The notes under the pieces: model-generated
Told to the model about the DNA's origin: nothing
The model's database searches: none
What the model saw: only the letters and a program-made list of their open reading frames with translations
Shown here: in pieces, positions 4,749-29,139 of the stretch
Layout of the letters: the number at the start of each line of letters is the position of its first letter
Position numbering within the stretch: the first letter of the stretch is position 1
Made by a program: the position numbers and the translations under genes
Source: Acetobacter tropicalis
GTDB lineage: Bacteria; Pseudomonadota; Alphaproteobacteria; Acetobacterales; Acetobacteraceae
Direction: 5' to 3'
NCBI RefSeq assembly: GCF_001580915.1
Contig: NZ_LHZQ01000220.1
Span: 1 to 64,000 of the forward strand
Length of the DNA stretch: 64,000 bases

Positions 4749-5435
4749 TCACCCAGCCGTATGGATACCACACTCTGTTTTGGAATGACCTGCCCAACGC
4801 CCGGCACGGGCATCTTCACCATCACCAACAGGGTGGGTACAGGGCCCACAACCAATGGAAAGATACCCTTCAGCCACCAGAGGATGTGGGGGCAGGCCTC
4901 GCCGCGCCATTTCCTCGGTAATGTCTTTGCCTGTCCATGCAGCCAGTGGATTGAGCCGAACCTGACCATCAGCTTTTTCTTCCACCACCGGGAGTGCCGC
5001 CCGGGTTACTGCCTGACCACGCTTGCGGCCCGTCACCAAAACTGCAAAGGGCAGGGAGGCTGCATCAAGCGGCTCAACCTTACGCAATTGGCAGCACGCA
5101 TCAGGATCAAACGCCCACAACTCTCCTGAAGGATCGCGTTCTTTGAGAGCCGCAGGCGAAGGCTTTACATCCTGCACATTAGTGAGCCCCAGGAAACGGG
5201 CCAGTTCTGCCCGATACGCCAATGTTTCTGGAAAATGTTTACCTGTTTCTAGAAACAACACCGGCATATCCGGAGCGGCTTCCGCCACAAACGCCAAAAG
5301 CAAGGCAGACTCAGCCCCAAAGGAAGAGAGAACCGCAATTCTATCTTTCAGAAGCAGAGACGCTAACCGCAAAAGTTTTACAGGATCATCTTCTTCTGCA
5401 CGCAGAGCGGAGAGAACCTGTGGTTCAACAGACAT
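4749..5435 (-). CDS. cysH: Assimilatory adenylylsulfate (APS) reductase CysH
   Basis: A 228-residue thioredoxin-dependent reductase that converts activated sulfate to sulfite. The PP-loop region SSFGAESA is near residue 38. The C-terminal catalytic motif is ECGIH. The protein also has a Cys-Cys pair (DACCQL) and a second Cys pair (CGPC), the four [4Fe-4S] ligands that in this family mark enzymes using APS rather than PAPS. It is the first gene of the cysH-cysD-cysNC set. No sulfite reductase gene is present in the window. Confidence 0.92.
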   Translation of the reverse strand: MSVEPQVLSALRAEEDDPVKLLRLASLLLKDRIAVLSSFGAESALLLAFVAEAAPDMPVLFLETGKHFPETLAYRAELARFLGLTNVQDVKPSPAALKERDPSGELWAFDPDACCQLRKVEPLDAASLPFAVLVTGRKRGQAVTRAALPVVEEKADGQVRLNPLAAWTGKDITEEMARRGLPPHPLVAEGYLSIGCGPCTHPVGDGEDARAGRWAGHSKTECGIHTAG

Positions 5436-5988
5436 AAAAGCACTTTCCAGAAAAAGCCAATGATTGCCGTGTTTGGCCTCAATTACACACGAAAACAGGC
5501 ATCTTCAAGGACAATTCACCCCACTGGAACGCGAAATTTGCATTCAAGCTATTCACAACCCTCAAGGCATCTTTCGTCAAGCGCCATGAACCACGCTGAA
5601 TTTCCGTGATACATACCGCATCCTTGGGATGTATCCCCCAATCACAACCAGCAATAATTTTGCGGCCTTGAGGCGACTTATGTCCAGTTCTGACATCCCA
5701 CTACACAACCCGTTCAAGTCTGGCGTTGATGGAAGAGACATGGACAGCGCGCCAGACGGTTTCAAGCCACAAGAAGGATGTTAAGCTTACAGAAGGAAGA
5801 AACCTGCGCCACATCATTTAGTTGGCATAATATATCTTATGCGATTTTTATGCCGCCGCTATTATGGGCTTGGAACTGCAATATCGGATTGCTCAGGATG
5901 ATTTCGACCGCACACTTTCTCTCACCATGTCAGTGTGCGGTCACCTCTGCTTTTCTAACGCGACAATCTGAAAGAATCTGACCCCGAG
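5436..5988. other. Intergenic region upstream of cysH (553 bases)
   Basis: I see no convincing gene. The region must hold the cysH promoter at its left end. A 62-codon minus-strand reading frame at 5577-5765 has a hydrophobic stretch but no recognisable family and no clear ribosome site. The right end carries a perfect 11-bp inverted repeat (5906-5942), listed separately. A weaker 8-bp inverted repeat is at 5718-5725 and 5750-5757. Confidence 0.5.
5906..5942. repeat. Perfect 11-bp inverted repeat
   Basis: gaccgcacact at 5906-5916 and agtgtgcggtc at 5932-5942 are exact reverse complements around a 15-base loop. It lies 46 bases beyond the stop of the minus-strand DUF333 gene, so it may end or stabilise that transcript. 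No T-run follows on the minus strand. A protein-binding palindrome is possible. Confidence 0.6.
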
Positions 5989-6273
5989 TTACTGTGCTGG
6001 TGGTTTAGGATTGTCACGACGGAACAAAGCCCACTCCTCCATTACTGTTCCGTCCGGCAGATGGCAAAAGTTCACTTGCCCTTTCTTGTCGTCATGCTGG
6101 GCAGTCAGAGTGCCGCCTTTCTTGGTACAATAGAGTGTTGCCGGGTTCGGCATCCGCAATGGACGCACCCGTTGCGTGGAGCGGTCCTCGTGATGTGTCT
6201 GACAACCAGCCAGAGCGCCCAGCGTGCATGCCATCAGAGTTACCCGAGCGGCGTGTTGAAAAATCTGCTTCAT
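5989..6273 (-). CDS. DUF333-family lipoprotein
   Basis: A 94-residue protein with a lipoprotein signal: a hydrophobic stretch ending LGALAGC, with the lipidated Cys at about residue 24. The mature part has the DUF333 pattern: NPATLYCTKKGG (about 43-54), then a Cys before LPDGTVMEEW near 71-81. Members are small periplasmic or outer-membrane lipoproteins, sometimes labelled putative hemolysins without good evidence; the function is unknown. An AGG-containing ribosome site precedes the ATG. It stands alone, flanked by spacers of more than 500 bases. Confidence 0.85.
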   Translation of the reverse strand: MKQIFQHAARVTLMACTLGALAGCQTHHEDRSTQRVRPLRMPNPATLYCTKKGGTLTAQHDDKKGQVNFCHLPDGTVMEEWALFRRDNPKPPAQ

Positions 6274-6784
6274 GACCTAATTATCCTGTCTAATTCCTGC
6301 AGAATGGCTCGGCCAAAAGCAGGTTTCTTCCCCCGCTCCTATTCCGACCTGTATGGCTTGTTGTAGGCATAAGTTTCGGAAATTGTCATGCCTGTTCTCA
6401 ACGCCATGCATAGACACCCTCCTTCACAACCCACACAGCAAAAACCTGAATGCAGCGGGAGAACTATTTGTGTGGGAACAAACCAAAGCGTTAGACTAAG
6501 TTCCCCCCAATAATCGGCTAAAACACCAATTAGATGTGCTCATTAGCGCTATATCTAAGCACCTGAAACGGGAACTTGGAGCCCCAACCATCAGCACAGA
6601 GACAGAGATAAAAACTTATCTTAAATCTGGCGCAAAAAATCCTCAGCTTACCGTGACTGATTTTTAGAGGCGCCACCGCGCTCAACGGAAATACCTTTTA
6701 CAGCCCTCATCTGCCGTGCTGGCATTCATGCTGCAAAGCAGATATGCTACGATCTCCAAATCATAAAAAAATCTGGTTTCTCAC
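6274..6784. other. Intergenic region upstream of bioB (511 bases)
   Basis: No intact gene is recognised. A plus-strand reading frame open from about 6500 and ending at TAG 6665-6667 encodes a plausible-looking hydrophilic peptide (ISKHLKRELGAPTIS, then TETEIKTYLKSGA). It lacks a good start and ribosome site, so it may be the tail of a decayed gene or chance. The bioB promoter should be near 6720-6784. Confidence 0.35.
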
Positions 6785-7819
6785 ATGCCTGATGGTTCTT
6801 CCCCTGTTTCCCGTCCCTCCTCCGCCACGGCTGCGCCTGACGCAACCGGCGTTGATATCCGTCATGACTGGACGGTAGCTGACATTCAGGCCCTGCTAGA
6901 TCTCCCTTTTCCGGAACTGATGTTTCGTGCTCAGACTATTCACCGCGCTTTTTTTGACCCAACCGATATCCAGATCTCTACTCTGCTTTCCATTAAAACA
7001 GGCGGTTGCCCTGAAGATTGCGCTTATTGTCCCCAAAGCGCCCGGCATGAAAAAAGTGTAAAAGCGGACCGTCTGATGGCCGTGGAAAATGTGCTGGTAG
7101 AAGCCCGCAAGGCACGGGATGCCGGAGCCAGCCGCTTTTGTATGGGGGCGGCCTGGCGCTCACCCAAGGAGCATGATCTGGAAACCGTGTGCGCCATGGT
7201 GGAAGGTGTAAAAGAACTTGGGTTGGAAACGTGCGTGACACTAGGCATGCTGGATTCTGGACAAGCCGGAAAACTCAAGGATGCCGGCCTCGATTACTAT
7301 AACCATAACCTTGATACCTCACCGGAATTCTACGGGGAAATTATCAGCACCCGCACTTACCAAGACCGGCTGGACACGCTTTCTCATGTGCGGGACGCTG
7401 GCATCAATGTCTGTTGTGGCGGCATTGTTGGCATGGGTGAAAACGAAACAGACCGTGCTGGCCTGATTGCAGCCCTCGCTACTCTCCCCACGCACCCTGA
7501 AAGCGTACCCATCAATTTGCTGGTACGCGTAAAAGGTACACCCCTAGGGGAAGCTGAAGAAATTGATCCGCTGGATTTTGTGCGGATGATTGCTGCTGCG
7601 CGTATTAGCATGCCAAAAAGCAGGGTGCGCCTTGCCGCAGGTCGTGAAAATATGAGCGATGAAACCCAGACGTTGTGCTTTCTGGCCGGGGCGAATTCCA
7701 TTTTTTATGGAGAACGCCTGCTGACCACTCCTAACCCCCAGGCGCAGCGCGACCGTCTTCTGCTTGATCGTCTGGGTATGCACACTACGGGTATTGGTCT
7801 GGACTCTGCTCAGGCCTGA
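6785..7819 (+). CDS. bioB: Biotin synthase BioB
   Basis: A 344-residue radical-SAM enzyme that inserts sulfur into dethiobiotin, the last step of biotin synthesis. The radical-SAM cluster motif CPEDCAYC gives Cys75, Cys79 and Cys82. Other family features are GAAWRSP, the conserved YNHNLDTS, and the C-terminal [17 protein letters not shown]. Length matches the family. The first 25 residues are a variable, Ser/Pro/Ala-rich extension. The ribosome site is weak. No other biotin genes adjoin it; the next gene, queE, follows after 23 bases on the same strand and may be cotranscribed. Confidence 0.96.
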
Positions 7820-8490: not shown

Positions 8491-9219
8491 ATGCCCTTCC
8501 CTGCCAACGCTCAAAAAGAATCAGCACTCGTTCTGTTTTCTGGAGGACAGGATTCCGCCACCTGCCTGGCGTGGGCGCTCGCCCACTTTGGTCGCGTGGA
8601 AACCATGGGGTTCGATTATGGTCAGCGCCACGCGGTGGAACTGGACTGTCGGGAAGCCCTGCGTGAAGGAATGCGCCATCAAAACCCTCTCTGGGCGGAA
8701 CGGCTGGGCATGGACCATACATTAGCTCTCGGTGCTCTTGGCGATATCTCGGAAACAGCCCTCACACGGGATGCTGAAATTGCCATGGCGGAAGGCGGCC
8801 TTCCCAACACGTTTGTGCCGGGGCGGAACATCATCTTTCTCACCTTTGCTGCTGCCCTCGCGGCGCGGCGCGGCATAAGGCATATTGTTACCGGTGTTTG
8901 TGAAACCGATTATTCCGGTTATCCAGACTGCCGTGATGACACCATAAAAGCCGTTCAGGTGGCCCTCAATCTGGGCATGGACGCGCGCTGTGTGTTGCAC
9001 ACCCCACTGATGTGGATCAATAAAGCCGAAACATGGAATCTGGCAGAAGAACTGGGCGGCCATGATCTGGTGACACTGATCAACCGTGAAAGCCATACCT
9101 GTTATCTGGGTGAACGGACTGCTCTGCATTCATGGGGCCACGGTTGCGGAAAATGCCCTGCCTGTGATCTCCGCCGTGCGGGATGGGAAGACTATGAAGC
9201 GGAGAAGGCTCATGCCTGA
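8491..9219 (+). CDS. queC: 7-cyano-7-deazaguanine synthase QueC
   Basis: A 242-residue ATP-dependent amide/nitrile synthetase that turns 7-carboxy-7-deazaguanine into preQ0. The PP-loop SGGQDS is at residues 17-22, followed by the conserved GFDYGQRH. The C-terminal region has four zinc-ligand cysteines (SHTCYLGE, then GCGKCPAC). It starts 3 bases after queE, and its last 8 bases overlap the queD start, indicating translational coupling. Confidence 0.96.
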
Positions 9220-20771: not shown

Positions 20772-21992
20772 TTAAAGATGCAATCTGCGGGCCGCACGCC
20801 CCAGAACACCCAGCGCTGGCACATCCTGCCCGACCACAACGGGTACCAGCGCCTGTCGACCACCCGGCAACAATACCGTCAGTTGCCCAGCAGGCTGCCC
20901 CTGCTTGAGGGGAGCAGCCAACGGTCCCTGATAATCCAAAGACACATGCGTTGAGTTGCGCCAGCCATGGGGCAACAGCATGGTGAAGTCCTGGGCCACA
21001 ACCAAGGGGACTGTCTGAACCTGCCCCATCCATACGGGAGCCTGTTCTACCACATCCCCTTTGCTGAGAATTTTTGCGGATTCAAAGTTGGCGAACGCCC
21101 ACCCCATCAACCGCTCGCTCTCACGGGCACGAACATTGGACGTTGGCATGCCATTCAGAGCCAGAATGACGCGACGCCCTTCCCGTTCAGACGATGCACA
21201 TAGACCAAAACCACCTGCATCCGTGTGGCCAGTCTTCAGGCCGTCTGCCAGTCCCTTGACCACCAGAGCATTCCGGTTTTCCTGCCGGATCTTGTTGAAG
21301 AAAAACTCTTTTTCCGAGAAATAATGATAATATTCTGGAAAATCATGGATGAGGCGCAAGGCAAGATACGCAACATCGCGTGCGGACATATAGTGGCCAT
21401 CAGCAGGCCAGCCCGTTGCGTTCAAGAAATGTGAGTTAGTGAGCCCCAACTTCCCTGCCATCTCATTCATCAGGGCGACGAATTGCTCTTCCGACCCGGA
21501 GATACCTTCAGCCAACACCACGCAGGCATCATTACCAGACTGGATCACCATACCCTGGATAAGGTCTTCAACAGAAACGCTCTGCCCCAATGGCACGAAC
21601 ATCCGTGATCCCTGCATGCGCCACGCTTTTTCGCTCACAGGCAGGGTCTGGTCCAGCTTCAGGCGGCCAGATTTCAGCATGGTGAAGGTAACGTACGCCG
21701 TCATCATCTTGGTGAGAGATGAAGGCGGCATCCGTTCATCCGCTGCCTTTTCAAGCAACGTTGCGCCGCTGTTGTAATCCAGAATGCAGGCCCAGCGCGC
21801 TACGGTATCCACCGGCCCTACCGGCGTAATGGCGGGCGTTTCCGGTACGGGAGCAGGCTGCGTGGCCGCTGCTGCGGCAGGTACATGCGCATGGGCCGCG
21901 CCACCCCTTACCTTACGGGCAAACGCATTGAATGAATAACCAGTGGAGGCAAGGGCCGCACCCCCTGCGAGAAGAAACCGGCGAGTATGCAC
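20772..21992 (-). CDS. D-alanyl-D-alanine carboxypeptidase (penicillin-binding protein 5/6 family)
   Basis: A 406-residue serine peptidase that trims the terminal D-Ala from peptidoglycan stems in the periplasm. Active-site motifs are S92-L-T-K95, S152-G-N154 and K253-T-G255. The N-terminus (TRRFLLAGGAALASTG) is a signal sequence with a twin-arginine pair. The start codon is GTG (21992-21990) with a good AGGAAAG ribosome site. A long Ala/Pro linker (about 30-60) follows the signal. It belongs to a wall cluster with rlpA and mltB. The symbol could be dacA, dacC or dacF; I leave it open. Confidence 0.93.
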   Translation of the reverse strand: MHTRRFLLAGGAALASTGYSFNAFARKVRGGAAHAHVPAAAAATQPAPVPETPAITPVGPVDTVARWACILDYNSGATLLEKAADERMPPSSLTKMMTAYVTFTMLKSGRLKLDQTLPVSEKAWRMQGSRMFVPLGQSVSVEDLIQGMVIQSGNDACVVLAEGISGSEEQFVALMNEMAGKLGLTNSHFLNATGWPADGHYMSARDVAYLALRLIHDFPEYYHYFSEKEFFFNKIRQENRNALVVKGLADGLKTGHTDAGGFGLCASSEREGRRVILALNGMPTSNVRARESERLMGWAFANFESAKILSKGDVVEQAPVWMGQVQTVPLVVAQDFTMLLPHGWRNSTHVSLDYQGPLAAPLKQGQPAGQLTVLLPGGRQALVPVVVGQDVPALGVLGRAARRLHL

Positions 21993-22000
21993 GTTCTTTC

Positions 22001-22882
22001 CTATTCGACGACAATATGAGATCCGGTTAAACCATCAGCAAGGGCATGCCTCAGGGCCACATCCGCCTCGCTTATAGTCGCAAACGGTCCGTGACGGACA
22101 GCCCACATTTTTCCCTGCTGGGTAAATGAAGGGACAACAGACGCTCCCTGACGGGCCGCCTCTCGGGCGGCAGCGTAACGGGATGTAAAATCGGCCGTCT
22201 CGACCCAGAACTGACCAGCAACAGGCATCCCCTGCCGCCATGTCGCGGGGAGATCAGACAGAACGATGGGACCACCTGCCACTGTAGCTTCCTGCGGCGC
22301 AGACTGCTGAACAGCCGGAACGGCGCGCCCGACTCTGGCCCCTGCCTTCGCTTCTTTCAACTGGGTCTGGGTTACCGTTTCCAGTGGAGCCGCATTGATC
22401 TGCAACATGGGGCCACCGGGCAGGATTTCAGCAAGATGACGGCTGGCTGCTTCATCTTCCACAATTCTTACACGCGCTGGCGCGGTTCCCATTCCCAGCA
22501 GATCCGCTGCCTTACGTGACAAGCCAAGCAGGCGACCAATTTCCTTCGGGCCCCGATCATTCAACCGGACCGTTACTTCCCGCCCATTATCCAGGTTCAT
22601 CACCGTAACCACCGCAGGTAACTGCAAGGTGGGATGGCTTCCTGTCATGGTCGCGTCATCACGCACTTCACCATCCGTAGTTAGCGCTGATGCGGTCTTT
22701 TCCTGTTTCTGACGAACAGCCAAGCCTGTTGCCTGATAGGAAAAATCCTCTCTGGGATAGAACCAAGCATTTTCCACCTGCCAGCCCGACCCCACCACAT
22801 AATGTACGGAAGGCTGAACCTTGGGCACCGGCCTGGAACAGGCCACAACCCCTACACAGCACAGCAGAACGGCTTTTTTCAC
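22001..22882 (-). CDS. rlpA: RlpA-like septal/endolytic transglycosylase lipoprotein with SPOR domain
   Basis: A 293-residue lipoprotein (signal ending GVVAC, Cys15). The double-psi beta-barrel domain spans about 30-155, with TVMNLDNGREVTVRLNDRGP and ADLLGMG. The C-terminal part (about 215-293) is a SPOR domain that binds denuded peptidoglycan, with GQFWVETADF near its start. RlpA proteins cleave naked glycan strands or mark division septa. Translation starts at GTG (22882), overlapping the mltB stop as GTGA. Confidence 0.9.
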   Translation of the reverse strand: MKKAVLLCCVGVVACSRPVPKVQPSVHYVVGSGWQVENAWFYPREDFSYQATGLAVRQKQEKTASALTTDGEVRDDATMTGSHPTLQLPAVVTVMNLDNGREVTVRLNDRGPKEIGRLLGLSRKAADLLGMGTAPARVRIVEDEAASRHLAEILPGGPMLQINAAPLETVTQTQLKEAKAGARVGRAVPAVQQSAPQEATVAGGPIVLSDLPATWRQGMPVAGQFWVETADFTSRYAAAREAARQGASVVPSFTQQGKMWAVRHGPFATISEADVALRHALADGLTGSHIVVE

Positions 22883-23895
22883 ACTATGGCACTACCTAGA
22901 AGACCGACTCCCAGAGCATAGAAGTCTGAAGGATTGTAACGGCGGATCACGTTGAAATTGTGGTAAACCATATAGGCTTCCCCACCTGCACCATCCGGGC
23001 GGATAACCGCCCCTTCCAGACCCGGCCGAGAAAAGCCTCCGCCTAACAGAGGCCTTACGCCCAAGCCCGCCCAGTAGGAAACGGGATGCACGGCAGCACG
23101 ACCAATCTGGGACTGATCCAGCGTATCAGGCACTTGCACCTGTTCGCCCCAAGGTTCTCCTGCCTGCCAATGACATTTGGCAAGATAGTTTGCGATAGAG
23201 GCAAAAACGTCTGCTTCATTATTCCAGATATCGCGCCGCCCCCCTGCCGGGAAACTGGCTGCGTAACGTTCATAAGCGCTGGGCATGAACTGTGGTTGTC
23301 CCATAGCACCCGCATAGCTTCCCAACATGCCGGAGGGCGTGATGTCACCGTTGTTCAGAATGTGAAGTGCCTTGAAGAGTTCGGCACGGAAAAAGCTGGA
23401 TCGTCTGCCATCAAAAGCCAGAGTCGCAAGGGAATCGACCACATGGTAGGTTCCCATTCTGGTGCCGTAAGCAGATTCCAGCCCCCAGATTCCCGCAATG
23501 GCACCACGGTCCACGCCATAGGCCTGACTGATCTGGCTAAGCAGGGCCGTGCGTTGCGCAACAGCATTTTGACCATCTGAAATTTTCTTGTCCGTGATCA
23601 CCCGGTCTTTATACTGAGCCCACGTAAGGGTGAATTCCGGCTGATGCCGGTCAGCTTTCAAAACCTTGGCATTTGGTTGCGTTGTCAAAGCCAGGGCTTC
23701 ATCCAGCATTGAAGCGGAAAGCCCTTGCTGGATGGCTTCCCGTCGAACACCTGCCAGAAAGGCAGCATAGCTCCCCGTTGCAGCCGGGCTGCTCGCCTTC
23801 TTGACATGCTTTGCCGAAGCAGCGCTGCGGGCGAATGCAGGTAAGAGCAGCGAGGACATAGTCCCACAAACGAGGGTTCTTCTTCTCAGCATCAT
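22879..23895 (-). CDS. Lytic murein transglycosylase (MltB/SLT2 family)
   Basis: A 338-residue exported enzyme that cleaves the glycan backbone of peptidoglycan with 1,6-anhydro formation. A signal peptide covers about 1-28 (cut near FARSAASA). The catalytic Glu is E140 in GIWGLESAYG, followed by GAMGQPQFMPSAY and FASIANYLAKCHW, family signatures. There is no lipobox, so it is probably soluble in the periplasm rather than MltB proper. It is the first gene of the packed operon. Adjacent ATGs at 23895 and 23892 are both possible starts. Confidence 0.92.
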   Translation of the reverse strand: MMLRRRTLVCGTMSSLLLPAFARSAASAKHVKKASSPAATGSYAAFLAGVRREAIQQGLSASMLDEALALTTQPNAKVLKADRHQPEFTLTWAQYKDRVITDKKISDGQNAVAQRTALLSQISQAYGVDRGAIAGIWGLESAYGTRMGTYHVVDSLATLAFDGRRSSFFRAELFKALHILNNGDITPSGMLGSYAGAMGQPQFMPSAYERYAASFPAGGRRDIWNNEADVFASIANYLAKCHWQAGEPWGEQVQVPDTLDQSQIGRAAVHPVSYWAGLGVRPLLGGGFSRPGLEGAVIRPDGAGGEAYMVYHNFNVIRRYNPSDFYALGVGLLGSAIV

Positions 23896-24069: not shown

Positions 24070-24645
24070 ATGCCAGACTCTCTGGAGCATTTTCTCGCAG
24101 CAACCACTGCCTATCCGGCGGTACAGGTGCTTATTGTCATCCTGGCCACCTTCATTCTGGAGGACGCGGCAACAGTACTCACCGCCATTCAGGTTAAACT
24201 GCATGCGCTCGGGCCGTTTGAAGCACTGATCGCACTTTATGTTGGCATTGTGCTGGGTGATGTCGGGCTTTACGGAATGGGGTATCTGGCCGCCCGCTGG
24301 GCTCCTGCCCGCCGCTGGATCAACACTCCCGAGCGCGATATGCAGCGCCAATGGCTGACAGAAAAACTGTTTAAGGTGGTTTTCATCAGCCGCTTTATTC
24401 CAGGCACCCGTCTGCCGCTTTATACAGCCTGCGGGTTCTTCAACGCTGGATTGCGCACCTTCACATTGGCTACACTCGCCGCCACGTTAATCTGGACATC
24501 TGCGCTATTTGCGCTATCGCTCCGCATTGGTGGCTTTCTTCTGGCTCACCTTGGGGCTTGGCGCTGGGCTGGCATTCTCGGCTTTGTGCTGGTTATCATT
24601 ATTATGGGTCGCATTGCCGCCCGCATGCAGAAACAGGGAAAATGA
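24070..24645 (+). CDS. DedA/VTT-domain inner-membrane protein
   Basis: A 191-residue polytopic membrane protein. The family motif is ISRFIPGTRLPLYTACGFF (about 113-131), with an N-terminal acidic re-entrant-like segment (ILEDAATVLTAIQVK) and GDVGLYGMGYLAARW. DedA proteins are implicated in proton-dependent lipid or drug transport, including recycling of undecaprenyl phosphate in several bacteria. The stop overlaps the next ATG (ATGA), so it is coupled to the ATP-grasp gene downstream. It is divergent from the mltB operon. Confidence 0.88.
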   Translation: MPDSLEHFLAATTAYPAVQVLIVILATFILEDAATVLTAIQVKLHALGPFEALIALYVGIVLGDVGLYGMGYLAARWAPARRWINTPERDMQRQWLTEKLFKVVFISRFIPGTRLPLYTACGFFNAGLRTFTLATLAATLIWTSALFALSLRIGGFLLAHLGAWRWAGILGFVLVIIIMGRIAARMQKQGK

Positions 24646-25739
24646 CCAAGCTGCCCTCTTCAGTCCGAGATTATTCTGCTGTGCCATCTGAAAATGGCTC
24701 TCCACTTTCCAGTTTTGAATTCTGGCCGGGCTGGATTTTTTATACGCCCATCGTGATCTACTGGATCCTGCTGGGGCTCCGTTACCGGGACTTCAGCACA
24801 CCAACCGCAGCGAACCCCCGTATTGAAACGGGCGGTCTGTGCGGAGAAAGCAAAAGCGGCATCCTGGATATGGCTGGAACCACAGCCTCCCGCTGGATTG
24901 CCCCTTACACCACCCTGTTCACCAGCTCTGACGATATGCGCCGTGCACAGGAAGCCATGACCCAGAAAGGCCTAAGCCTGCCCATCGTTGTAAAGCCTGA
25001 TATCGGCTGCAATGGTACTGGTGTAAAACTGGCACGGACAAATCAAGAACTGGATGCGGCTTTGGCAGCTTTCCCGCGGGGCATAAAACTGGTCATACAG
25101 CGCCTTATTCCTTATCGGCATGAAGCTGGCCTGTTCTATATCCGCCACCCTGATAGCGCTCATGGCACGCTCTCATCCCTGACGTATAAGGATATTCCTG
25201 CGCTGGCAGGAAACGGGCATGATACCGTGCGGGAACTGTTAAAGCAGGACCCGCGCACCCGCCTTCTGCTTCATATCTACACCCCACGCCTGCAAAACCG
25301 TCTGAACGATGTTCTGGAGGAAGGGGAAACTATTGATCTCGTTTTCACGGGTAATCACTGCAAAGGGGCCATTTTCCGTAACGGAGCCGAGGATATTACT
25401 CCTGCCCTTACAGCACGCCTGGATGAAATCATGCAGGACGTCCCTGATTTTCATTTCGGTCGAGTGGATGTGAAATTCGAGTCTGTCGAGGCTCTTCGAG
25501 CCGGTGAAAAATTTGAGATCATTGAAATCAATGGCGTAGGGTCTGAGGCTATCCATATATGGGACTCACGCACCACCCTGCGCGAAGCCTATGCAGCCCA
25601 GTTCCACCATTATGGGGAAACATTCCGGATAGGGGCCAAAAAGAAAAAGGCAGGCTGGAAATCCAGCGGCCTTTGGCACGGCGTACGCCTGTGGCGCAGA
25701 CAAAAGCGCCTGTTAGCCTCTTACCCCATGAATGACTAA
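24642..25739 (+). CDS. Membrane-anchored ATP-grasp ligase-like protein, substrate unknown
   Basis: A 365-residue protein. An N-terminal aromatic/hydrophobic segment (about 26-47, FEFWPGWIFYTPIVIY) could anchor it in the membrane. NPRIETGGLCGESK (about 58-71) follows. The remaining sequence has ATP-grasp features: PIVVKPDIGCNGTGVKL (about 113-129, the nucleotide-binding Lys and Gly-rich loop), a central QRLIP segment, FHFGRVDVKFES and FEIIEINGVGSEA, with the metal-binding Asp/Glu/Asn residues. The fold joins a carboxylate to an amine, as in D-Ala-D-Ala ligase, but the Ddl-specific surroundings are missing. The start is fixed by the ATGA overlap with the DedA gene. The function is not known to me. 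Confidence 0.8.
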   Translation: MTKLPSSVRDYSAVPSENGSPLSSFEFWPGWIFYTPIVIYWILLGLRYRDFSTPTAANPRIETGGLCGESKSGILDMAGTTASRWIAPYTTLFTSSDDMRRAQEAMTQKGLSLPIVVKPDIGCNGTGVKLARTNQELDAALAAFPRGIKLVIQRLIPYRHEAGLFYIRHPDSAHGTLSSLTYKDIPALAGNGHDTVRELLKQDPRTRLLLHIYTPRLQNRLNDVLEEGETIDLVFTGNHCKGAIFRNGAEDITPALTARLDEIMQDVPDFHFGRVDVKFESVEALRAGEKFEIIEINGVGSEAIHIWDSRTTLREAYAAQFHHYGETFRIGAKKKKAGWKSSGLWHGVRLWRRQKRLLASYPMND

Positions 25740-27715: not shown

Positions 27716-28564
27716 TCAGGCACTGAAATGGAAAATCAGCGTCGCAATAAGTCCTGCTCCCATACAGTAATAAGCGAAGGGAGAGAGCGCCCATCTATCA
27801 TGGTCACGGAAATAACGCATCAGGAAAGCCGTGCTGGCCAAAGCAGTTACTCCGGAAATCACGGCAGCTATCAGTGCTACGTGCATCTGCCCAGGCTCCA
27901 GAACCATATGCCGCATTTTAAAGGCTTCTCGCGCCGTAGCCGCAATAATCACGGGCTCAGCCATCAGAAAAGAAAAGCGAGCCGCCGTGTCATGCCGCAA
28001 CCCCCGGATCAAACCGCCACAAATGGTCGCGCCAGACCGGGAAAAACCCGGCAAAAAGGCTATGCACTGAAACACACCTATCACCAGAGCATCACGCATG
28101 GTCATGTCCGCTACAGTGCGCACACCGTATCGACCACCCAAGCCCCGCAGCTTTTCTGCTAAAAGCAACATAACGCCATTCAGAAACAGAAAAATGGCGG
28201 CTGAAGGAGCAGAGCCGAATAAACTCCGCAGCAAATGCTCGAACAATCCACCGATGATAACCGCAGGGATAGTCGCCACAACCAGCAGGAAGAGGATATG
28301 CATGCTCTCCATCTGGATCCTGCTTCCCAGCAGACCTGCGGACCCTTTGAACAAAGCGGACCAGTCTTTCCAGAAAAAAATCAGCAACGCCACAGACGTG
28401 CCGAGATGCAGCATCACCAGAAAAGGTAAAAATGCTTCGTCATGCAGATTGTAAGACCAGTGCAGGAGCGCGGGCAAAATGACCGCATGCCCCAGACTGC
28501 TGACCGGAAAAAGTTCCGTCGCCCCTTGCAGGACGGCTATGATAATAGCCTGAATGAAAGACAT
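27716..28564 (-). CDS. uppP: Undecaprenyl-diphosphatase UppP (BacA)
   Basis: A 282-residue membrane enzyme dephosphorylating undecaprenyl diphosphate for reuse as the wall-precursor carrier. Both catalytic regions are visible: LQGATELFPVSSLGH (about 11-25) and PGFSRSGATI (about 170-180). In the common form the first reads EFLPVSSxxH; here it is ELFPVSSLGH. A longer frame begins at 28711, but the family start is the ATG at 28564. Its start region is divergent from the MCE gene. Confidence 0.95.
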   Translation of the reverse strand: MSFIQAIIIAVLQGATELFPVSSLGHAVILPALLHWSYNLHDEAFLPFLVMLHLGTSVALLIFFWKDWSALFKGSAGLLGSRIQMESMHILFLLVVATIPAVIIGGLFEHLLRSLFGSAPSAAIFLFLNGVMLLLAEKLRGLGGRYGVRTVADMTMRDALVIGVFQCIAFLPGFSRSGATICGGLIRGLRHDTAARFSFLMAEPVIIAATAREAFKMRHMVLEPGQMHVALIAAVISGVTALASTAFLMRYFRDHDRWALSPFAYYCMGAGLIATLIFHFSA

Positions 28565-28680
28565 TGATACACAACCCAGTTCTGGCCACACAAGCTTGTC
28601 CTTGCACCAAGTCCCCGCCTGCTGCAAGCATTCATAACCAATGGGCTCTGGCCTTGCCTCATGATGGAGAAAACAGATCA

Positions 28681-29139
28681 ATGATTGGGAGAGGCCGTAC
28701 CGGCGCCACACTTTTCAGCAGCGCCGTTCTGGCTGGCACGCTGGCATTTGCTCTGTATGCTCGTGCCACCCAGACCGCTCCCGGACAGGAGCGGTATGAC
28801 CTCTCAGCCCGTTTTGTGTCCGCCAATGGCCTTGCACGCGGCGCGGACGTAGCGTTGGCGGGAGTACCCGTTGGCCGGGTTTCCTCCGTTACACTCGACC
28901 CTACCTCCCAAATGGCCATTGTGAAATTCAGGATGAACACCGAACTCAAGATCCCTGACGACAGCACGCTGACAATTGGCAGCAGCACGCTTTCTTCCGA
29001 TAATGCCCTGATCATTGAGCCAGGCCATTCCCGCGCCATGGCAGCCCCCGGCACGTTGCTGACCCATACACTTGAGCCTTCCAGCCTTGAGCAACAGGTG
29101 AGCAATTACATTTTTGGCGGTGGCAATCTGGATCAATGA
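28681..29139 (+). CDS. MlaD-like MCE-domain protein
   Basis: A 152-residue protein with one N-terminal membrane segment (about 9-27) and one MCE domain: YDLSARFVSANGLARGADVALAGVPVGRV, followed by KIPDDSTLTIGSSTLSSDNALIIEPG. MlaD subunits form periplasmic hexamers carrying phospholipids between the membranes, held by MlaE/MlaF. Length fits MlaD, but no mlaE, mlaF, mlaC or mlaB gene is adjacent, so this is an orphan copy. The ATG at 28681 has only a distant GGAG. Confidence 0.85.
   Translation: MIGRGRTGATLFSSAVLAGTLAFALYARATQTAPGQERYDLSARFVSANGLARGADVALAGVPVGRVSSVTLDPTSQMAIVKFRMNTELKIPDDSTLTIGSSTLSSDNALIIEPGHSRAMAAPGTLLTHTLEPSSLEQQVSNYIFGGGNLDQ

Follow-up and report, generated by a model that had tools for sequence, protein, structure and literature searches.

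What might a DedA-type membrane protein and an ATP-grasp enzyme of an unnamed family, encoded by overlapping genes in the genome of an acetic acid bacterium, do together? Within the window (the whole stretch of 64,000 nucleotides of Acetobacter tropicalis DNA that was analysed), a gene for a 191-residue VTT/DedA-type integral membrane protein (24070 to 24645, forward strand) is followed by one for a 365-residue ATP-grasp carboxylate-amine ligase (24642 to 25739, forward strand), whose ATG start lies within the ATGA that holds the stop of the first gene (24642 to 24645, forward strand; sequence GGAAAATGACC). An earlier note on this DNA had called attention to that overlap; both reading frames were found at the positions it gave, and the pair is real and conserved. 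Among the 106 loci that encode the two proteins in separate reading frames (loci that are in part non-independent), 67 show the in-frame NTGA overlap again, and comparison with A. senegalensis gave a dN of 0.017 and dS of 0.56 for the VTT gene, and a dN of 0.055 and dS of 0.99 for that of the ligase. The overlap is thus beyond chance, because it recurs in this manner and because dN lies far below dS, and both genes are under purifying selection. Close relatives belong to Acetobacter species, A. senegalensis displaying 92% protein identity. The note knew of no described pathway for such a pair, and none was found in the open-access literature searched. The answer developed here, which we regard as reasonably probable taken as a whole, is that the ligase is a carboxylate-amine ligase acting on the head group of an aminolipid, with taurine as a candidate amine, and that the DedA protein moves the product.

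The first of the two proteins is a member of the DedA/VTT family (PF09335, 53 bits; gathering cut-off 33.9), with an all-helical model (pLDDT 78) and with residues L30-E31-D32, G63-D64, R108, P111-G112, R114, G122 and W142 invariant across 18 homologues. Its assignment as the undecaprenyl phosphate transporter UptA was rejected, the similarity being weak (NF052604, 22.6 bits against 250). The VTT profile was built from length-filtered seeds. Of the 129 distinct ligase homologues collected, a set weighted to the Acetobacteraceae, 98 have a VTT gene immediately before them or joined to them as a fusion. Such fusions are known from two separate settings, in genome G029 (574 residues, loci L006 and L082) and on an Azospirillum plasmid (590 residues); the latter gene (L136, 8362 to 10134) carries the annotation 'VTT domain-containing protein' and nothing more. 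In a sample of 198 genomes from the gammaproteobacterial order of G066, drawn without regard to the ligase gene, 24 contained a strong ligase match, and a VTT gene lay upstream in 9 of these. The DedA protein is a frequent, non-obligatory partner of the ligase. The earlier note had staked its pairing on homologues usually keeping a DedA neighbour, which holds for primary copies in the Acetobacteraceae and is partly refuted elsewhere, with VTT upstream at only nine of the 24 gammaproteobacterial loci.

Neither a VTT gene nor an acyltransferase gene was present in the sequence read around 15 of the 129 homologues, which are mainly second copies in the Acetobacteraceae and plasmid copies, together with a few at contig edges. 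Second paralogues in Gluconacetobacter and Komagataeibacter, some of them on plasmids (L074 and L093, near 5052 to 7324; L097, 5928 to 8866; L143, 5148 to 8086), have no DedA or acyltransferase neighbour and are divergent from a methyltransferase gene (annotated as such on a Komagataeibacter plasmid, where an iron-containing redox enzyme gene adjoins it).

The model of the second protein (AlphaFold2, 32 aligned sequences; pLDDT 87.3, pTM 0.85) displays an ATP-grasp fold. Structural comparison using Foldseek and VIA-align gave 448 PDB matches at E <= 0.001, and among the matches listed ATP-grasp enzymes lead: the top matches are ligase domains of cyanophycin synthetase, which align at Z 18.2 and rmsd 4.0 across 277 residues, with bifunctional glutathione synthetase also present and RimK/LysX-type enzymes likewise structural neighbours. 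A search of PDB sequences with the single protein returned nothing useful and a profile search was needed; the best match to the family profile (E 2.3e-11) agrees with the fold. Alignments of 17 and of 32 homologues established that K118, R274, D276, E295, N297, W307 and D308 are invariant, and the fold together with the invariant K118, D276, E295 and N297 places the protein within the ATP-grasp superfamily. Since these four residues occupy positions where binding of ATP and metal would be expected, the enzyme is, to judge from its sequence, probably active.

The earlier note had portrayed this protein as an unassigned ATP-grasp enzyme outside any context typical of a D-alanine-D-alanine ligase (Ddl), and had recommended comparison with Ddl, RimK and carboxylate-amine ligases; that it is an ATP-grasp enzyme other than Ddl has held up. 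No curated Pfam or NCBIfam family scored above its cut-off, the ATP-grasp and RimK hits being sub-threshold, and PHROGs gave zero matches. Assignment was rejected in turn as a Ddl (TIGR01205, 13.3 bits against 245.65), as a member of the RimK family (TIGR00768, 22.3 bits against 143.4; PF08443, 20 bits against 21) and as a cyanophycin synthetase (TIGR02068, 20.5 bits against 850, the 365-residue protein aligning with the ligase region alone), the ligase domain of that last enzyme nonetheless being the closest structure. The description 'membrane-anchored' fared less well. A conserved aromatic hydrophobic segment, WPGWIFYTPIVIYWILLGLRY (residues 28-48; 24723 to 24785, forward strand), might form a membrane-contact helix: the model places a helix at residues 30-47, and FEFWPGW is kept in most homologues. 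The maximum Kyte-Doolittle mean over 19 residues is just 1.39 (residues 28-46), so that anchoring is borderline, and for the aromatic segment WPGWIFYTPIVIYWILLGL, conserved and moderately hydrophobic, contact with the membrane is plausible from sequence and model.

Could the pair instead serve cell-wall synthesis, as a peptide ligase resembling Ddl, together with a DedA protein that recycles undecaprenyl phosphate? The genes for dac, rlpA, mltB and an UppP-like protein lie within a few kilobases in the window (the first three at 20772 to 23895, reverse strand, which from sequence we take to be a DD-carboxypeptidase, RlpA and MltB), undecaprenyl phosphate is carried by some DedA proteins, and Salinivibrio relatives of the ligase are automatically annotated as 'D-alanine--D-alanine ligase'. 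Nevertheless, the scores of the two proteins fall far below the Ddl and UptA cut-offs, a true Ddl is encoded elsewhere in the same genome (G000:C193, TIGR01205 277.2 bits), and outside the acetic acid bacteria it is acyltransferases, not wall genes, that are the conserved neighbours. The dac and mltB genes recur in a small-genome relative (L104) and are absent beside the ligase at the gammaproteobacterial and plasmid loci read. We consider a function in wall synthesis very improbable, and the wall-peptide role that the earlier note had entertained is not supported. Two further observations concern these genes: a UppP/BacA-like undecaprenyl pyrophosphatase gene, as judged by its sequence, lies about 2 kb downstream of the pair (27716 to 28711, reverse strand), and may represent ancestral synteny of acetic acid bacteria, a similar gene being found near the pair in L104; and coding sequences near 8926 to 10113 in L137 and L138 are automatically named 'D-alanine--D-alanine ligase', a label for which the window's own member, scored against the curated Ddl cut-off, gives no support.

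Those acyltransferases are the neighbours to which the ligase is more strongly linked. In all 24 of the ligase-bearing gammaproteobacterial genomes a gene with an Acetyltransf_5 domain (the N-acyltransferase domain of OlsB and OlsF) is found nearby, the distance between starts being 0.4-4.4 kb in 23 of them; in the remaining genome (G395) it comes after a fragment of the ligase gene located where a contig ends. Just 129 of the 198 genomes contain the domain at all. In any one genome a same-strand neighbour of this type would be expected by chance within 5 kb with a probability of less than 0.7%, and the rough product of such chances, taking one genome from each of six families, is about 10^-14.5. 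The partner takes three forms: a bifunctional OlsF-like protein; an OlsB-like protein with a PlsC-type acyltransferase (L130-L132, the domains of the L131 pair having been read by Pfam); and an OlsB-like protein alone, directly 3' of the ligase gene in Variovorax. An OlsF-like gene directly precedes the VTT-ATP-grasp fusion in G029, and one is linked to the ligase in an alphaproteobacterial metagenome-assembled genome. Linkage to an N-acyl-amino-acid lipid synthase, the property that we propose should mark an aminolipid ligase, was therefore found in the 24 gammaproteobacteria, in Variovorax, in G029 and in that assembled genome. Outside the Acetobacteraceae an OlsB/OlsF-like N-acyltransferase, not DedA, is the most constant partner of the ligase, and we consider it very likely that the ligase acts in an aminolipid pathway. 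The joint role in an envelope lipid that the earlier note had suggested is accordingly likely; the stronger link, to ornithine-type aminolipids, had escaped it.

Three gene orders were distinguished in the gammaproteobacteria: (i) VTT-ligase-DinB-TANGO2-YHS-(DoxX-like)-OlsF-like; (ii) ligase-OlsF-like-DinB-TANGO2-YHS, without VTT; and (iii) DinB-ligase-OlsB-like-PlsC. In Salinivibrio the order is VTT-ligase-DinB-NRDE, with no annotated OlsF within 9 kb. The cluster at L078 (8415 to 13720), and those at L079, L112 and L120, combine the ligase with DinB-like, TANGO2/NRDE, YHS-domain, in some cases DoxX-like, and OlsF-like genes. Conserved companions of this kind, together with the location of several ligase copies on plasmids or secondary replicons, could be read to indicate that the enzyme makes a secreted lipopeptide-like signal or a siderophore-like molecule from a lyso-aminolipid, rather than a bulk membrane lipid. 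That proposal appears highly unlikely, as the linked synthases have both the N- and the O-acyltransferase domains of diacyl membrane lipid synthesis, and as wide presence at a conserved place in acetic acid bacteria fits a structural lipid.

The synthases linked to the ligase are themselves distinctive. Seven of them scored 378-432 bits against the OlsF equivalog NF052615 (cut-off 620), as compared with 818-899 bits for four unlinked OlsF proteins of related genomes, often the same genome, and several genomes hold both the linked OlsF-like protein and an ordinary OlsF. In a tree that carries long-branch warnings, most unlinked OlsF proteins are separated from the linked group by long branches, and four unlinked copies of family f36 fall within it. 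Loci of the linked type include L078 (11957 to 13720), L121 (8806 to 10587) and L129 (5812 to 7581). This distinctness in sequence suggests a dedicated lipid; the ligase-linked subfamily is probably an undescribed aminolipid synthase, and the gammaproteobacteria appear to possess a separate aminolipid pathway that includes the ligase. The divergence from ordinary OlsF would also be expected for an enzyme with a different acceptor and, with the coexistence of both forms in several genomes, might mean that the ligase works before acylation, generating a small amide, or an amine resembling a dipeptide (ornithyl-taurine, for instance), that a dedicated OlsF/OlsB-like N-acyltransferase then acylates. 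Such an order of events seems unlikely: ligase-bearing Acetobacteraceae mostly have a single OlsB-type gene, and a substrate residing in the membrane is suggested both by the hydrophobic segment conserved in the ligase and by its DedA partner.

In the Acetobacteraceae, OlsB and the pair are encoded at unlinked loci. An OlsB-type gene is present in 145 of 150 sampled genomes of that family, such that its co-occurrence with the pair is uninformative, and also in the genome under study, where it scores 280.7 bits against an equivalog cut-off of 320 and is OlsB-like, below certified OlsB. Two genomes (G279 and G344) contain the VTT-ligase pair without a clear OlsB hit, possibly as a result of incomplete assembly.

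One genus of this family was of particular relevance. A protein chain from a PDB alignment, 8gy2_A, is presumably the AdhA of Gluconobacter oxydans, and on that basis genus g162 was taken to be Gluconobacter: in a 397-genome sample of the family, the AdhA of G660 is 100% identical to the chain, and those of eight other g162 members are 78-99% identical. The 150-genome draw contained no AdhA nearly identical to it. Plasmid pGOX1, also considered as a marker of Gluconobacter, was set aside because it was too weak. In G596 (C1:288695-290752) and G628 (C3:2083163-2085220), AdhA has one in-frame TGA, and may be a pseudogene or reflect a sequencing artefact. The pair was found, with VTT directly upstream of the ligase, in all 11 g162 genomes tested, among them two (G252 and G329) that carry the g162 code and are absent from the AdhA list. 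Passages of two papers describe cerilipin as the ornithine-taurine lipid of Gluconobacter cerinus (PMC4484230, PMC12493201); where the open-access literature, in which a published gene could be missed, speaks of 'taurine transfer', it names no gene for that step. The presence of the pair throughout g162 fits a ligase that makes cerilipin, and does not single it out for that role, because the pair occurs widely among the acetic acid bacteria. Taurine is named by the report from this one genus and by nothing beyond it, a search for taurine-lipid reports in other ligase-bearing groups having found none. The sulfur-containing aminolipids of roseobacters (PMC8319176) were set aside, their head group having been assigned as aminopropane sulfonate, not taurine, with no ligase invoked.

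The pathway that we envisage would begin with an ornithine lipid made by the OlsB-type pathway in the genome under study, or with a related lipid made by the dedicated OlsF-like synthase in gammaproteobacteria. Using ATP, the ligase would convert the free alpha-carboxyl in the amino acid head of that lipid into an acyl-phosphate, and would then join the activated carboxyl to a small-molecule amine. That the enzyme is a head-group amide ligase, as opposed to a catalyst of some other reaction, we judge fairly probable; taurine (yielding cerilipin) would be the best single candidate for the amine, and its use by acetic acid bacteria is a possibility of less than even strength. A different reaction, in which a small acid is activated and attached to a lipid amine, be it the delta-amine of ornithine lipid or a different one, gains some credence from the RimK/LysX-type structural neighbours and from the free delta-amine of ornithine lipid; we think it unlikely, given that fold and profile alike match best to the ligase domains of cyanophycin and glutathione synthetases, which activate the carboxyl of a growing substrate, and that the taurine of cerilipin has no carboxyl to activate. 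In the preferred scheme, the DedA/VTT protein would carry the lipid, either finished or as a precursor, across the inner membrane. Its transport of the aminolipid product, to which we assign evenly balanced chances, is supported by analogy to PetA, the DedA protein of B. subtilis that transports phosphatidylethanolamine (PMC12893004); flipping cannot be obligatory, because many operons with a linked OlsF have no DedA gene. The most specific version of the scheme is more doubtful: that the pair comprises the missing enzyme of the cerilipin taurine step and a flippase dedicated to aminolipids, with a sister system in gammaproteobacteria that employs its own OlsF-like synthase to make an unknown aminolipid with a two-part head.

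Chemical knowledge of taurine transfer to ornithine lipid goes back to 1976; recent papers, in the passages that list the step, give it without a gene name. The ligase offers a concrete candidate, ready for gene knock-out in acetic acid bacteria, which are genetically tractable, and in gammaproteobacteria; its partner is a DedA protein for which gene fusion and operon structure indicate a likely cargo, in a family where most cargoes are unknown; and the existence of a second OlsF-like subfamily, the one linked to the ligase, implies that gammaproteobacteria make an aminolipid so far undescribed.

Set beside systems already described, the VTT protein resembles the lipid transporters UptA and PetA in its domain and in its E-D, G-D and R-x-x-PG-x-R motifs; it differs from UptA in falling outside that equivalog, and from both in being encoded with, or fused to, an ATP-grasp ligase. 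The ligase domain (G) of cyanophycin synthetase and the glutathione synthetases phosphorylate, and so activate, the carboxyl at the end of a larger substrate before adding a small amine to it. The present enzyme has the same fold, and in profile alignment a GDG-ST-EL segment and an E-x-N metal site in common with them, and would be expected to employ the same acyl-phosphate chemistry, placing an amine onto a carboxyl; unlike cyanophycin synthetase, it lacks that enzyme's other domains and possesses the aromatic N-terminal segment and a family-specific SEA-HIWD motif. The ligase-linked synthases have the same domain set as the OlsBA and OlsF ornithine lipid synthases, and constitute a subfamily distinct from OlsF. 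Finally, the synthesis of cerilipin needs an amide ligase of such a kind; the passages describing that lipid do not give the gene for its taurine step, for which the ligase, present with its partner in every tested genome of the genus identified as Gluconobacter, is a candidate.
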